DNA from: Acidobacteriota bacterium
GTDB taxonomy: Bacteria; Acidobacteriota; Blastocatellia; Pyrinomonadales; Pyrinomonadaceae
DNA length: 64,000 bases
Assembly (NCBI GenBank): GCA_020200135.1
Contig: JAIVJI010000064.1
Span: forward strand, 92,988-156,987
Direction: 5' to 3'
Position 1 is the stretch's first letter. Each line of letters opens with the position of its first letter. A program made the position numbers and the translations under genes. Positions 32,131 to 38,164 of the stretch are shown here, piece after piece. Under the pieces are notes generated by a model that did not search any database, was not told the DNA's origin, and worked only from the letters and a program-made list of their open reading frames with translations.

Positions 32131-32292
32131 GACGCTGAAAGACCTCTTACACGCCTAAAGAAATCTGTTGCAATATCCTTCGGGCGGCGCTAATCTCCCG
32201 CCCGTGGGTCGCCTCTGCTTTCCGACCCTCACGACAGGCACACTAAGCCCTAGCCGCCAGAAGGCAGCTTGCCCGGCCGGAAGGCGCGCGGA

Positions 32293-32523
32293 CTAGACCA
32301 GCGCGAGCACGCCCGCGAGCAGGTCAAGAACAGTCTCCGCGAGACTGTCCGTTGCCCCGTCGGGCGCTTCGCCTTCCGAGGCGTCGGGTGTGGTGTTTTG
32401 TTCCTGCCCTGCGGTCGCCGGCTGTGGCGGCGGGGGCTGTGGCGAGCCGTTAGGCATCTCGCCGGCATAGACGGGGAACGTCAAGGCCAGTATCAAGGCC
32501 GCTACGCTGACAGCTTTACGCAT
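32293..32523 (-). CDS. Small secreted Pro/Gln-rich peptide
   Basis: This 76-residue product has a clear Sec signal peptide: MRKAVSVAALILALTFPVYA, with an AYA-type cleavage site. The predicted mature peptide of about 56 residues begins GEMPNGSPQPPPPQPATAG, has an acidic middle (PDASEGEAPDGATDS) and ends in a hydrophobic stretch (VLDLLAGVLALV). It has no Cys. It is transcribed divergently from the TPR-Fis regulator, 117 bases away, across a region with a strong palindrome. Function is unknown; the context suggests a signalling or membrane-active peptide. Confidence 0.65.
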   Translation of the reverse strand: MRKAVSVAALILALTFPVYAGEMPNGSPQPPPPQPATAGQEQNTTPDASEGEAPDGATDSLAETVLDLLAGVLALV

Positions 32524-32594
32524 CCTCTTTTCCTCTCGCTTTAATGAGGGTTAACCGAAGCCGCCGCCCGAACCCGAAGGTTCGGGGGCTTTGT

Positions 32595-32622
32595 CGCACA
32601 TGCCGAAAAATCGGCATGTGCG
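32595..32622. promoter_or_regulatory. Perfect palindrome between divergent peptide and TPR-Fis genes
   Basis: CGCACATGCCGA and TCGGCATGTGCG (12-base arms) flank AAAA. A weaker palindrome (CCGAACC/GGTTCGG) lies just before it. The 18-base distance to the regulator ATG suits an operator for autoregulation, though an RNA hairpin in the leader is also possible. Confidence 0.55.
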
Positions 32623-32640
32623 GAGAAAGGCTGACCTCAC

Positions 32641-34128
32641 ATGACATTAGCAGATAGCCGCCTGAAGGAACTAGATAACCCCTCACTATCAGAGAATGAG
32701 CGCGTCATGTTGCGCTGCCGTGTAGCGGCAGACCTCATCCACAAAGGGCAGTACGAGGGCGCGCGCGAGGCTTTAGGCGAGTTGTGGCCGGGAGTCGGGC
32801 AGAGGCCGGAAGTGAAGAGGCTGCTGCCCGTGACGGCCGCCGAAGTCTTACTCCAAAGTGGGACGCTCACGGGCTGGCTCGGCAGCGCGCGTAACGTACA
32901 GGGCGCGCAGGAGCAGGCTAAAGACCTTCTCTCCGAAGCACTCCGAAAGTTCAAGTCTCAGGGTAAACACGCGAAGGTCTCTGAGGCGCAGTATGAACTT
33001 GGCATGTGCTACTGGCGGCTCGGCTCTTACGACGAGTCGCGGGTGACGTTAGAAGAGGCGTTAAAGGGGCTTGGCGATCATGACGGCGAGTTAAGAGCCA
33101 AAGTGCTGATAAGGCGCAGTCTCGTTGAAGTCTGGACGGGCAGGTATCACGAAGCGTGGAAGATGCTGGACGAGGCCGCCGCGTTCTTCGAGGGCTGCGG
33201 CGACGCGCTTAAGGGAAGGTGGCATGGGCAGAAGGGGTTGGTCTTTAGGAGGCTCGCCACGGCGGAAGGGCGGGCGGATTACTTTGATAAGGCCATCATC
33301 GAATACACCGCAGCAATTTACCACTACGAGCAGGCCAAGCATGAAAGGTACTGCGGCACTAACTTAAACAACCTTGCTTTCTTACTCTACAAGCTCGGCA
33401 GGTATAAAGACGCGCACGAACACTTAGACCGGGCAGAGTTCATCTTTACGAGGCTGGAAGACCCCGGCAACCTCGCGCAGGTTGACGAGACGCGGGCGCG
33501 CGTTCTGATAGCTGAGGGGCTACACCGCGAGGCAGACCGCATCCTCGCGGGAGTCGTTAAGACCTTCGAGCAGGGTAGCGAGTTCGCCTTGCTCGCAGAC
33601 GCTCTCACCGTTCAAGGCGTCGCGTGGGCAAGGCTCGGGGCGTCCGAACGCTCTATCGCCGTACTGTACCGCGCGGCGGACATAGCCGAAGGCGTCGGCG
33701 CTCTCACAATCGCCGGTTTCGCGGCGCTGGCCTTAATCGAAGAATACGGCGCGGGACGTCTACTCACTCAGGCGGAAGTCTATAAGGCTTACACGCGCGC
33801 CGACCGGCTGTTGAAAGACTCGCAGGACGCGGAGGACGCCGCGAGGCTTCGGGCGTGCGCGCGCGTGGTCATGCGGAGGCTGGCGGGCGTGCAGCTACAC
33901 GATAAAAACTTCTCGTTCTACGGCGCGGTACAGGAGCTTGAGGCGAAGATAATCGAGCAGGCTTTAGAGGAGACGGGCGGAAGCGTGACGAAGGCGGCGA
34001 AGCTGCTCGGACTGAAGCACCAGACGCTAGGCTCCATACTGAATCAGAGGCACAGGCGGCTTCTGAGGAAGCGGACGCCGGCCGTTCCGCGCCGCCGGAG
34101 TATCATCAAAGAACCCCCTGAAGAATAG
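32641..34128 (+). CDS. TPR-repeat regulator with C-terminal Fis-type helix-turn-helix
   Basis: This 495-residue cytosolic protein is mostly tetratricopeptide helices (about residues 30-400, with repeats such as AQYELGMCYWRLGSYDESRVTLEEAL and NLAFLLYKLGRYKDAHEHLDRAE). The last 60 residues carry a Fis-type HTH, ALEETGGSVTKAAKLLGLKHQTLGSIL, then a basic tail RRLLRKRTPAVPRRR. A TPR sensor joined to a Fis DNA-binding domain suggests ligand- or peptide-controlled transcription. It faces the small secreted peptide gene across a palindromic spacer. Confidence 0.8.
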   Translation: MTLADSRLKELDNPSLSENERVMLRCRVAADLIHKGQYEGAREALGELWPGVGQRPEVKRLLPVTAAEVLLQSGTLTGWLGSARNVQGAQEQAKDLLSEALRKFKSQGKHAKVSEAQYELGMCYWRLGSYDESRVTLEEALKGLGDHDGELRAKVLIRRSLVEVWTGRYHEAWKMLDEAAAFFEGCGDALKGRWHGQKGLVFRRLATAEGRADYFDKAIIEYTAAIYHYEQAKHERYCGTNLNNLAFLLYKLGRYKDAHEHLDRAEFIFTRLEDPGNLAQVDETRARVLIAEGLHREADRILAGVVKTFEQGSEFALLADALTVQGVAWARLGASERSIAVLYRAADIAEGVGALTIAGFAALALIEEYGAGRLLTQAEVYKAYTRADRLLKDSQDAEDAARLRACARVVMRRLAGVQLHDKNFSFYGAVQELEAKIIEQALEETGGSVTKAAKLLGLKHQTLGSILNQRHRRLLRKRTPAVPRRRSIIKEPPEE

Positions 34129-34429
34129 CAACACAGATTTAGGACACCACCCGCCGGAAAGGGTTCTTGCCAAAGCCGGTCTGTTTAAGGTACAAAGTCG
34201 TTCGTAAGTGACGACAGGTTGCTCCCCGTCAAGAACAGAGATTTAAGTCACAGACCACCTTTCACGAGCGGGCGAGAAGCGGCCTAAGCTCCCGGCGCGC
34301 GCCCGCCGTCTGTTCGCGAGCAACCTTGACAAGGCTCACGCTGGCGGATTTGTCCCGCGCCCGAACAACGTGCGGCGGCGGCCGCCTCGCCCGAATTCGA
34401 CCCATTTGTCTTCAAGGAGAGAAGAAGTT
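34129..34429. other. Intergenic region before the TonB-dependent receptor
   Basis: About 300 bases with no supported gene. A Shine-Dalgarno stretch (caaggagagaag) lies directly before the receptor start. I see no clear terminator for the TPR-Fis gene and no promoter of good quality. Confidence 0.45.
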
Positions 34430-37400
34430 ATGCGTGCTAACCCACGGCGGTGGCTCCCGACCGCTTACCGTTTCGTGCTCGCGTGCGCCTGCGCGCTCGC
34501 CTTCGGCGCGGGCCCCGCACTGGCGCAGGCCGACGCCACATCCGCCAACCTGAGCGGCTTCGTGCACGACCCGGCGGGCGCGGTCGTCACCGGCGCCACC
34601 GTCACGGCGCGCAACCCCTCGGTCGGCGTCACACGCACGACGACGACCAACGACGAGGGCTTCTACCAGCTCGTCCAACTCCCGCCGGGCGCATACGAGG
34701 TGTCGGTCGAGGCCGCCAACTTCAAGAAGGCCCTCATCCCCTCGGTCACCGTCACCGTCGGCCAGCGCGCCGACCTCGACATCGCGCTCGAGCTGGGGCA
34801 GATCACCGACGTGGTCACCGTCACCGGCGCGCAGACCGAGCTGATCGAGACCTCGAAGACCAACGTCTCGAACACCATCGACGAGCAGCGCATCGACAAC
34901 CTGCCCATCAACCAGCGCGACTACATCAACTTCGCGCTGACGACCTCGAACGTCACGCGCGACAACGGCCGCCCCATCGGCCCCGCGCCGACCTCGGGTC
35001 TCAACTTCGGCGGCCAGCGCGGGCGCTCGAACCTCGTCCAGGTCGACGGCGCCGACAACACCGACAACTCGGTCAACGCCTCGCGCTCGACCGTCTCGCA
35101 GGAGGCGGTGCAGGAGTTCCAGGTCGTCACCAACTCGTTCGCGCCGGAGTTCGGGCGCACCGCGGGCGGCGTCGTCAACGTCGTCACCAAGTCGGGGACC
35201 AACGAGGTGCGCGGCAACGTCTACGGCTTCATCCGCCACAAGTCGATTCAGGCCAAGAACCCGTTCGCGCCCATCATCGACAACGACCCGGAGAAGAAGC
35301 CGCCGTTCACGCGCGCGCAGTACGGCGCCACGATCGGCTTCCCGCTCGCGCGCGACATGACGTTCGGCTTCCTCGCCTTCGAGCAGCGCAAGCGGCAGGA
35401 GTCGGGCTTCTTCACCTCGGACGTCGTCCAGGGTCTGAATTCGAGCGTCACCATCGGCGCGCCGTTCCTCCCCTTCTCGCAGACCTTCACGCGCATCAAC
35501 TCGGCGCAGGCCGCCTACGTCCAGGGGCTTTTGACGCAGGCCGCGACGCTCATCGGGACGGGCGTGCCCGCCAACATCGCCACGGGGCAGGCGCTCGCCG
35601 GCGCCGCCGTCCAGTACGCGACGCTCGCCTCGGCCGGCGGCCAGACCGGCCTGACCGGCTCCAGCACGCTCATCAGCCCGGGCGGCGCCATCCCCGCCGG
35701 CACGCCCATCGGCCAGCGCTTCTTCCTGACGGGCGCGCCCGTCCCCGTCAACCCGAACGCCTTCCGCCCGCTGCTCGGGCTCCCGCGCGTCTTCCCCATC
35801 GCCGAGGACACGACCTTCGCGTCGGGACGCCTCGACCACCGCATCAACGAGCGTAACGACCTCACGATGCGCTTCAGCTACAACCCGTCGGACATCACGG
35901 GCATTCAGGTCGAGTCGCAGAACCAGGCGCTCGGCCAGAACGACTTCTCGCGCACGGGCATCCAGACGCTGCGCGACTCGAACTTCGTCGCCACGCTCCA
36001 CTCGACGCTCTCGAACACGATGGTCAACGAGGCGCGCTTCAACTTCGGCCAGCGGCGCGCCACCTTCACCTCGCAGAACGGGCAGGGCACGGCCTACAAC
36101 ATCTCGGGCGTCGCCTTCGTCGGCCGCGAGCTGTTCTCGCCGGTCATCCGCACCGAGAACCGCTACGCCTACAGCGACAGCCTGAGCTGGGTCGCCGGCA
36201 ACCACACGCTGAAGTTCGGCGGCGACGCCAACTTCGTCAGCGTCTCGGCGCTCTTCGAGCTGAACTTCGCCGGCCTCTTCAACTTCGGCGGGCTCTCGGC
36301 CAACACGCTCGCGCCCTTCCCCGGCAGCGCGCCGGCGTTCACGCCCGTCCAGCAGTACGGGCTGGGCTTCCCCAACAACTTCGTCCAGGGCTTCGGCAAC
36401 CCGAGCAGCAACCTCAAGAACCGCCCGCTCGCGGCCTTCGCGCAGGACTCGTGGAAGATTCGCCCGAACCTGACGCTCAACTACGGCGTGCGCTACGACT
36501 ACGAGATAACCGACCAGCTCGCCGTGCAGGACTTCCGCGACCCGCTCTCGGGGCTCACCGTCGCCGCCGGCACCACGCAGCAGTTCTACAACGCCTTCGG
36601 CGTCCAGCAGGGCTTCCCGCGCGACAAGGACAACATCGCGCCGCGCATCGGCGTGGCCTGGGACCTGACGGGCAACGGCGACACGGTGCTGCGCGCCGCC
36701 TACGGTCTCTTCTACGACCACCCGCTCCTGGCCATCGGCTTCAACTCCGACATCGCCGACAACGTGCAGCAGCAGCAGTTCATCTCCTTGCCCGGCAGCC
36801 CGGCGCCGACCGCGCTCCTGAACGCCGTGCAGATCTTCCAGGGCACGGTCTGCACCGCGGCCTCCAGCAACCCGCTCTGCCCGCCGGGGTTCACCACGCC
36901 GGGCACGGCGCCGTCGGCGCGGTACCAGTTCGGCCGCCAGCGCTTCGACGACCAGACGTTCCCGGGCTTCGGGCCGTTCCTGCCGTTCTCGCTGCCGGTC
37001 TCGACCGACTTCGAGTTCGCCTACGCCAACCAGGCCAACGTCACGCTCGAGCGCAAGCTGACGACGAACATGTCGTTCCAGGCGAGCTGGCTCTTCACGG
37101 GCGCGCACCACCTGCCGCACCCGACCAACCTGAACGCGCCGAACAACGCGCTGCTCATCCAGAACTTCGTCCGCTGCTTCGGCACTCAGCCGACGAACAC
37201 GACTGCGGTGCTCACGGTCTCGCCCACGGCCTGCTCGAACATCGTCGCGCAGCCCATCCCCGGCCTCATCGCCGTCACCACGCGCGGCGCGGTCGTCCAG
37301 CCGTTCGCGGCCAACCTCTTCCGCCCGTCGGGGCCCAACTACTTCTTCACGCAGGCCATCACGGGCGGCGCGGTCACGCCCTCGGTCTTCAACGGCGCGC

Positions 37401-38164
37401 TCACCGCGACGGGCGCGCTCGCGCGGCCGGGCTTCGTCACCACCTTCGGCGACGTCAACGCGCAGGTCTCGGACGGCAACAACGTCTACCACGCCGGCAC
37501 CTTCGAGGTGCGCCGGCGCTTCGCCGACAACTACCAGTTCCTCGCCTCCTACACCTGGTCGCACTCGATCGACGATTCGAGCGACCTCCAGACGCTGCTG
37601 CTGCCGCAGGACGTAACCCGGCTCGACCTCGAGCGCGCCGACTCACTCTTCGACCAGCGCCACCGCTTCGTCTTCAGCGCCGTGTTGGCCGCGCCCGGCT
37701 CGTGGCGCAGCGAGGGCGGGTTCCGCAGCTTCCTCTCGGGCTTCATCGTCGCCCCGATCTTCGAGTGGTCGGCGGGCCGACCCTTCAACATCCTCTCGGG
37801 GCAGGACACGAACAACGACCTGTCGAGTTCGACCGACCGCCCGTCGGTCGACTCGAACGGCGTGCTCTTCGTGCCCGCGCCGTTCCAGTCCGGCAACCTC
37901 GGGCGCAACGTCGGGCTGACGCACTCCTACCAGTCGCTCGACCTGCGCGTGACGCGCAACATCCCCTTGGGCGAACGCTTCCGCCTCGAAGTCATCGCCG
38001 AGGGCTTCAACCTCTTCAACCGCTTCAACGAGGCCGCGGTCTCGCCGCGGTTCGAGGACGTCAACCTCGTGGGCGACCGCGCCGGCAACGGTCGCTACCG
38101 CAGCCGCTCGACCGCCGCCTTCGACCCCCGCCAGTTCCAGTTCGGCTTGAAACTAAACTTCTGA
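34430..38164 (+). CDS. TonB-dependent receptor with carboxypeptidase regulatory-like domain (Oar-type)
   Basis: This 1244-residue outer-membrane protein starts with a signal peptide (RFVLACACALAFGAGPALAQA). A carboxypeptidase-regulatory-like beta-sandwich follows (NLSGFVHDPAGAVVTGATVT), then a plug region with TSNVTR, NFGGQRGRSNLVQVDGADNTD and FAPEFGRTAGGVVNVVTKSGTNEVRG, and a long TonB barrel ending in an aromatic C-terminus (FQFGLKLNF). It is intact. Such giant receptors are numerous in Acidobacteriota and probably import large or carbohydrate substrates. ATG 34430 fits the signal peptide and ribosome site. Confidence 0.88.
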   Translation: MRANPRRWLPTAYRFVLACACALAFGAGPALAQADATSANLSGFVHDPAGAVVTGATVTARNPSVGVTRTTTTNDEGFYQLVQLPPGAYEVSVEAANFKKALIPSVTVTVGQRADLDIALELGQITDVVTVTGAQTELIETSKTNVSNTIDEQRIDNLPINQRDYINFALTTSNVTRDNGRPIGPAPTSGLNFGGQRGRSNLVQVDGADNTDNSVNASRSTVSQEAVQEFQVVTNSFAPEFGRTAGGVVNVVTKSGTNEVRGNVYGFIRHKSIQAKNPFAPIIDNDPEKKPPFTRAQYGATIGFPLARDMTFGFLAFEQRKRQESGFFTSDVVQGLNSSVTIGAPFLPFSQTFTRINSAQAAYVQGLLTQAATLIGTGVPANIATGQALAGAAVQYATLASAGGQTGLTGSSTLISPGGAIPAGTPIGQRFFLTGAPVPVNPNAFRPLLGLPRVFPIAEDTTFASGRLDHRINERNDLTMRFSYNPSDITGIQVESQNQALGQNDFSRTGIQTLRDSNFVATLHSTLSNTMVNEARFNFGQRRATFTSQNGQGTAYNISGVAFVGRELFSPVIRTENRYAYSDSLSWVAGNHTLKFGGDANFVSVSALFELNFAGLFNFGGLSANTLAPFPGSAPAFTPVQQYGLGFPNNFVQGFGNPSSNLKNRPLAAFAQDSWKIRPNLTLNYGVRYDYEITDQLAVQDFRDPLSGLTVAAGTTQQFYNAFGVQQGFPRDKDNIAPRIGVAWDLTGNGDTVLRAAYGLFYDHPLLAIGFNSDIADNVQQQQFISLPGSPAPTALLNAVQIFQGTVCTAASSNPLCPPGFTTPGTAPSARYQFGRQRFDDQTFPGFGPFLPFSLPVSTDFEFAYANQANVTLERKLTTNMSFQASWLFTGAHHLPHPTNLNAPNNALLIQNFVRCFGTQPTNTTAVLTVSPTACSNIVAQPIPGLIAVTTRGAVVQPFAANLFRPSGPNYFFTQAITGGAVTPSVFNGALTATGALARPGFVTTFGDVNAQVSDGNNVYHAGTFEVRRRFADNYQFLASYTWSHSIDDSSDLQTLLLPQDVTRLDLERADSLFDQRHRFVFSAVLAAPGSWRSEGGFRSFLSGFIVAPIFEWSAGRPFNILSGQDTNNDLSSSTDRPSVDSNGVLFVPAPFQSGNLGRNVGLTHSYQSLDLRVTRNIPLGERFRLEVIAEGFNLFNRFNEAAVSPRFEDVNLVGDRAGNGRYRSRSTAAFDPRQFQFGLKLNF

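Follow-up and report, generated by a model that had tools for sequence, protein, structure and literature searches.

The locus described here is probably a peptide pheromone and receptor module that works in the manner of RRNPP quorum sensing and is built from other parts. It lies in a window of 64,000 nt, the whole stretch of DNA that was analysed, and consists of two divergent genes separated by a spacer of 117 bp:

32293..32523, minus strand: putative exported propeptide gene (ATG ORF, 76 aa)
32641..34128, plus strand: TPR-Fis receptor/regulator gene (ATG ORF, 495 aa; Pfam, AlphaFold2 and PDB profile and fold matches)

The ORFs and Pfam confirm the arrangement proposed in an earlier, sequence-only reading, i.e., a 76 aa peptide gene divergent from the gene of a TPR protein with a C-terminal Fis helix-turn-helix (HTH). 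The guess of an Acidobacteriota-like genome was right, as all matches in a taxon-named scan are in Acidobacteriota, mostly in Pyrinomonadaceae/Blastocatellia. The proposal of a peptide-signalling module gains support from co-conservation of the two genes and from an anatomy typical of pheromone precursors (a variable tandem motif). Three findings go beyond that reading: the motif repeats, a palindrome near the receptor start that is private to the module, and a far receptor promoter with a probable antisense overlap.

A check of relatives shows that the pair is kept in ~97% of TPR-Fis loci. Among TPR-Fis starts in Pyrinomonadaceae/Blastocatellia, 97/100 have a divergent exported-type peptide gene, where the 100 starts are those with enough upstream DNA (in a few cases one gene contributes alternative starts) and the 97 pairs comprise 83 from a strict caller and the remainder by inspection. 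A peptide gene also accompanies 18 of 20 further, distant receptors and 4/4 remote relatives in IMG/VR contigs, and pairing persists down to receptors with 30–33% identity to that of the window. There are several TPR-Fis paralogues in this genome, and the close ones each have a divergent exported-type peptide gene at near-equal spacing. A peptide profile search of the genome detects six strong genes, all six adjoining a TPR-Fis gene, with no clear orphans. The receptor is present in 44 of 119 genomes of the same family, with up to nine matches each, and in phylum and class samples receptors are found in one family only. The pairs form a large, apparently undescribed family within one Acidobacteriota family; a search of a library of published papers, with few subscription papers among them, came upon no account of such TPR-Fis/peptide pairs from Acidobacteriota. 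L208–L211 are distant copies of the pair on contigs that IMG/VR classes as viral; they represent either mobile copies or misfiled chromosome.

The peptide ORF is not a chance ORF, since the ORF caller is positive at 88/91 paired loci compared with 1/171 other long-ORF starts and 11/4745 random positions; the caller, which uses a divergent ATG ORF, signal-peptide features, prolines and a hydrophobic C-terminus, was tuned on the peptide family itself, so the 88/91 figure is not independent. The gene is under purifying selection, with dN/dS < 1 in 13/13 pairs tested. No fitting family for the window peptide is found in Pfam or NCBIfam. The AlphaFold2 model of the peptide displays only two helices (residues 2–15 and 56–75) and is uninformative (pLDDT 68). 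Across the family the peptides are mostly 60–90 aa in length, with a few down to 50 aa. They comprise a signal-peptide-like start and a conserved cleavage-like site (A before and G or D after the predicted cut), then a short variable motif that a proline-rich linker connects to the hydrophobic C-terminal helix, which has the conserved sequence LLxxVLSLF. Export via Sec is predicted from the composition, the hydrophobic N-terminus and the conserved site; the window peptide would begin with MRKAVSVAALILALTFPVYA before the cut and continue with GEMPNGSPQPPPP after it. Because export is a prediction from sequence and the C-terminal helix is conserved, the peptide might instead stay in the cell, where the precursor or its C-terminal helix would bind the TPR domain directly and modulate the receptor by an anti-activator logic. 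The conserved cleavage-like site, immediately followed by a repeated motif, is at odds with this explanation, which is the least probable of those considered.

The motif that follows the predicted signal peptidase site varies among paralogues, e.g., GEMPNG, GIIWTGK, GETSTPPC, GDMGTG and GDLPTAG. In the window peptide GEMPNG is the predicted mature start and GEAPDG is a second, imperfect copy (4/6 identical). Of 91 precursors, 42% contain a further copy of their own motif with an identity of 5/6 or more, compared with 2.5% when a motif is searched in another precursor and 0.5% in shuffled sequences; ~36% of precursors have no repeat above 3/6. The highest copy number is four, with GDMGTG in the L144 precursor, and GDLPTAG is present three times in L253. 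Repeats within one precursor are as in RRNPP pheromone precursors; RRNPP propeptides contain 1–4 motif repeats, which in Rap-Phr represent functional pheromones (PMC11343458). The copies are at the mature N-terminus and internal, and the C-terminus of the precursor is the conserved hydrophobic helix, which the pheromone model leaves unexplained. At L249 and at L252 a single TPR-Fis gene is accompanied by two propeptide genes in tandem that differ from each other.

The 495 aa protein has Pfam matches to TPR_12 (7e-13) and to the Fis domain HTH_8 (2e-10, residues 431–463). Its AlphaFold2 model (pLDDT 88.2) shows a TPR superhelix of ~nine helical hairpins followed by the HTH, and the closest solved folds are the peptide-bound TPR domains of LGN/Pins. 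In a PDB profile search the best match is kinesin light chain (4e-12), and the Fis domain of FleQ is also matched. Similarity to Rap and NprR in this search is weak and of a general TPR kind (RapI 8e-4, NprR 7e-4 to 2e-3). A comparison of concave and convex TPR helices shows that the groove is not significantly more conserved (p = 0.07). The Fis-type C-terminal HTH is shared with enhancer-binding proteins of the NtrC type (FleQ, NtrC). These have an AAA+ domain, whereas no such domain (Sigma54_activat) is found in the window receptor by Pfam search and its sensor is the TPR domain; relatives such as L027 and L043 do carry the sigma54 AAA+ domain. The TPR domain is found in three architectures, TPR-Fis, TPR-Fis-REC and TPR-sigma54 AAA+-Fis, and a tree of 88 receptors requires 14 changes between them, an upper figure in that some Fis-only rows end at a contig edge. 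This number implies repeated gain or loss of output domains, with retention of the peptide partner. No convincing sigma54 promoters are found in the spacers of the AAA+ members.

The closest known systems are those of RRNPP(A) in Bacillota, i.e., Rap-Phr, NprR-NprX, PlcR-PapR, Rgg-SHP, PrgX-cCF10 and AimR-arbitrium. Their signature is a cytosolic TPR receptor adjoining a Sec-type propeptide of 10–100 aa within 400 bp (PMC10075063), and the receptors have an N-terminal HTH or a 3-helix bundle (PMC9765709). A TPR superhelix receptor, a neighbouring propeptide, paralogues in multiple copies and motif repeats are common to RRNPP(A) and the module. The Pfam TPR matches, the AlphaFold2 model and the related folds agree with 5–9 TPR units in a right-handed superhelix, and a propeptide of 76 aa at 117 bp is within the limits of 10–100 aa and -60 to 400 bp; the neighbouring propeptide is conserved in ~97% of loci. 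The differences are in the receptor, the peptide and the host. The HTH of the window receptor is C-terminal and of the HTH_8 type, not N-terminal, and the PDB profile search reveals no homology to an RRNPP(A) subfamily beyond generic TPR. The mature pheromone of RRNPP(A) is mostly at the propeptide C-terminus, in contrast to the mature N-terminal and internal motif of the module, whose peptide has a conserved C-terminal hydrophobic helix instead. Further differences are the REC or sigma54 AAA+ domains of some receptors and the Gram-negative Acidobacteriota host. Given the C-terminal Fis HTH, the lack of specific homology and the different motif position, the best reading is that the module is RRNPP-like in its working, of separate origin, and not an RRNPP member.

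The spacer contains two inverted repeats:

32567..32586, no strand: stem-loop/palindrome CCCGAACC-CGAA-GGTTCGGG, seen in the sequence and in relatives
32595..32622, no strand: perfect 28 bp palindrome CGCACATGCCGA-AAAA-TCGGCATGTGCG; the TPR-Fis start is 18 nt downstream

Close relatives have similar elements at the place of the first. The second is a candidate operator, a candidate leader hairpin, or both. Its core, TGCCGA-N4-TCGGCA, is present in two copies in the 5.27 Mb genome, both just upstream of TPR-Fis genes, and the TTGCAAGGAWTCTTGC form is present in four copies in 119 genomes, 4/4 at TPR-Fis genes. Strong palindromes (score of at least 7) are found at this place with a frequency of 20%, compared with 1% in shuffled sequences. 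In 14/88 spacers a half-palindrome represents the -35 box of a near-consensus promoter of the peptide gene, compared with a null of 1%; the subclade of the window itself yields no recognisable peptide promoter. An operator search for a regulon yields no target genes beyond the module, since exact copies of the palindrome occur at TPR-Fis loci only. Palindromes private to the module could mean that TPR-Fis regulates the peptide gene alone, which would suit a structural or envelope role for the secreted peptide, with TPR-Fis as an ordinary local regulator whose signal is a different one. Exported proline-rich peptides are common, and the C-terminal helix could be seated in a membrane. However, the strict one-to-one pairing and the paralogue-specific motifs, identical within a precursor, fit a ligand and receptor instead, and a structural role for the peptide is considered unlikely, although less so than an intracellular one.

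The spacer was also scanned for a receptor promoter of the kind described below, which is absent there. Three conserved elements follow the peptide gene on its 3' side:

32168..32196, plus strand: sigma70-like promoter TTGCAA-N17-TAATCT, conserved in the alignment, the probable TPR-Fis promoter
32237..32246, plus strand: conserved leader sequence GGCACACTAA
32253..32268, strand unsure: conserved stem-loop GCCGCCA..GGCAGC, immediately past the stop codon of the peptide gene

In the family a conserved promoter in this location, TTGCAT-N17-TAATCT or TATGCT, points back at the peptide gene, with a conserved GACACACTAA and stem-loops downstream of it. It is present at a match of at least 10/12 in 25% of loci, compared with a null of 0.9%. 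Three TPR-Fis genes have no peptide gene (L004, on contig C29 of this genome, L084 and L134) and are possible receivers without a signal of their own. Each has a like promoter 250–317 nt upstream that is aimed at the receptor, with a frequency in shuffled sequences of 0 to 1.3% each. On these observations the far promoter probably drives the receptor gene. As it is beyond the peptide gene, the leader of the receptor mRNA would be antisense across the whole of that gene, and the two transcripts probably overlap. An Rfam search gives no match near a curated threshold. RNAalifold with a MAFFT alignment of the convergent leader gives only 4 pairs with weak covariation, a result attributed to poor alignment in the loops; individual folds do show stem-loops. 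In the common form GCCGCC/GGCAGC, the plus strand has a C-A mismatch where the minus strand forms a G-U pair, and the stem-loops of other members favour the plus strand, so that either strand may be the acting one. A similar organization is found in prgQ/prgX of plasmid pCF10, where convergent promoters produce overlapping antisense transcripts of a peptide gene and a TPR-like receptor gene (PMC4519249). There is no sequence relation to prgQ/prgX, and in the module the receptor leader would span the entire peptide gene.

The antisense geometry also suits a unit of the toxin/antitoxin kind, in which a membrane-acting, self-harmful peptide would have its mRNA silenced by the TPR-Fis leader while TPR-Fis controls both promoters. 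The peptide is small with two hydrophobic helices, and the receptor gene is broken in three of this genome's six copies. Next to these broken genes, however, the peptide genes are intact; a TPR ligand-binding superhelix is not needed for such a unit; and a variable tandem hydrophilic motif right behind a signal peptidase site is not a known feature of type I toxins. A toxin/antitoxin function is unlikely, if somewhat less so than the structural and intracellular alternatives.

In the preferred pheromone and receptor module, the propeptide would be exported via Sec and cut by signal peptidase. The cut would expose the short paralogue-specific motif (here GEMPNG, with GEAPDG), the copies having proline-rich linkers between them and the hydrophobic C-terminal helix after them, and further proteolysis would free the motif peptides. 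These may be taken up again by an oligopeptide importer and then bind in the groove of the TPR superhelix. SBP_bac_5 oligopeptide-binding proteins are present in the genome, none of them tied to the module. Peptide binding would alter the action of the C-terminal Fis HTH at the spacer palindrome and in this way switch the module. Most likely the free receptor would repress the peptide promoter and the peptide would relieve this repression, a direction suggested by the half-palindrome being the -35 box where that promoter is recognisable. With the receptor probably transcribed from the far promoter, the two transcripts would oppose each other. The many diverged copies per genome could provide several private channels.

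The pair appears to be a system of bacterial cell-to-cell signalling, and none was found reported for Acidobacteriota, an abundant, hard-to-culture Gram-negative soil phylum. RRNPP quorum sensing is on record for Bacillota and for the mobile elements of Bacillota, and the largest survey covered those and viruses only (PMC10075063). If the proposal is true, a scheme of the RRNPP type with a different DNA-binding domain exists in Acidobacteriota and has arisen more than once, and the motifs represent concrete candidate signal peptides for the phylum. The chances are about even that the loci together constitute a separately evolved Acidobacteriota superfamily of peptide communication, with one TPR sensor, three outputs (Fis, Fis-REC and sigma54 AAA+-Fis), for each receptor its own repeat-bearing precursor and an antisense toggle, and up to ~nine channels per genome.

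Recurrent neighbour genes that might represent an output were sought, and a single conserved locus was found, in one clade only (L142, L145–L150, L154, L155 and L159). There the module is between DNA-ligase-like and peptidyl-prolyl-isomerase-like genes, names that were assigned by eye, and this locus is possibly the ancestral site of the module. In the window, a long ORF at positions 34370–38164 on the plus strand, with a putative start codon, is directly 3' of the TPR-Fis gene. It resembles a TonB-dependent receptor whose N-terminal domain is carboxypeptidase-like. In this genome, the receptor gene is broken and the peptide gene intact at L005 (contig C116), L007 (C32) and L010 (C61). The TPR-Fis copy of L005 has a fold-back at positions 2280–2408 with inverted arms of ~45 nt, in which codons 306–331 are reversed and replace codons 267–305. 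A template-switch mutation would explain this, as would an assembly error.
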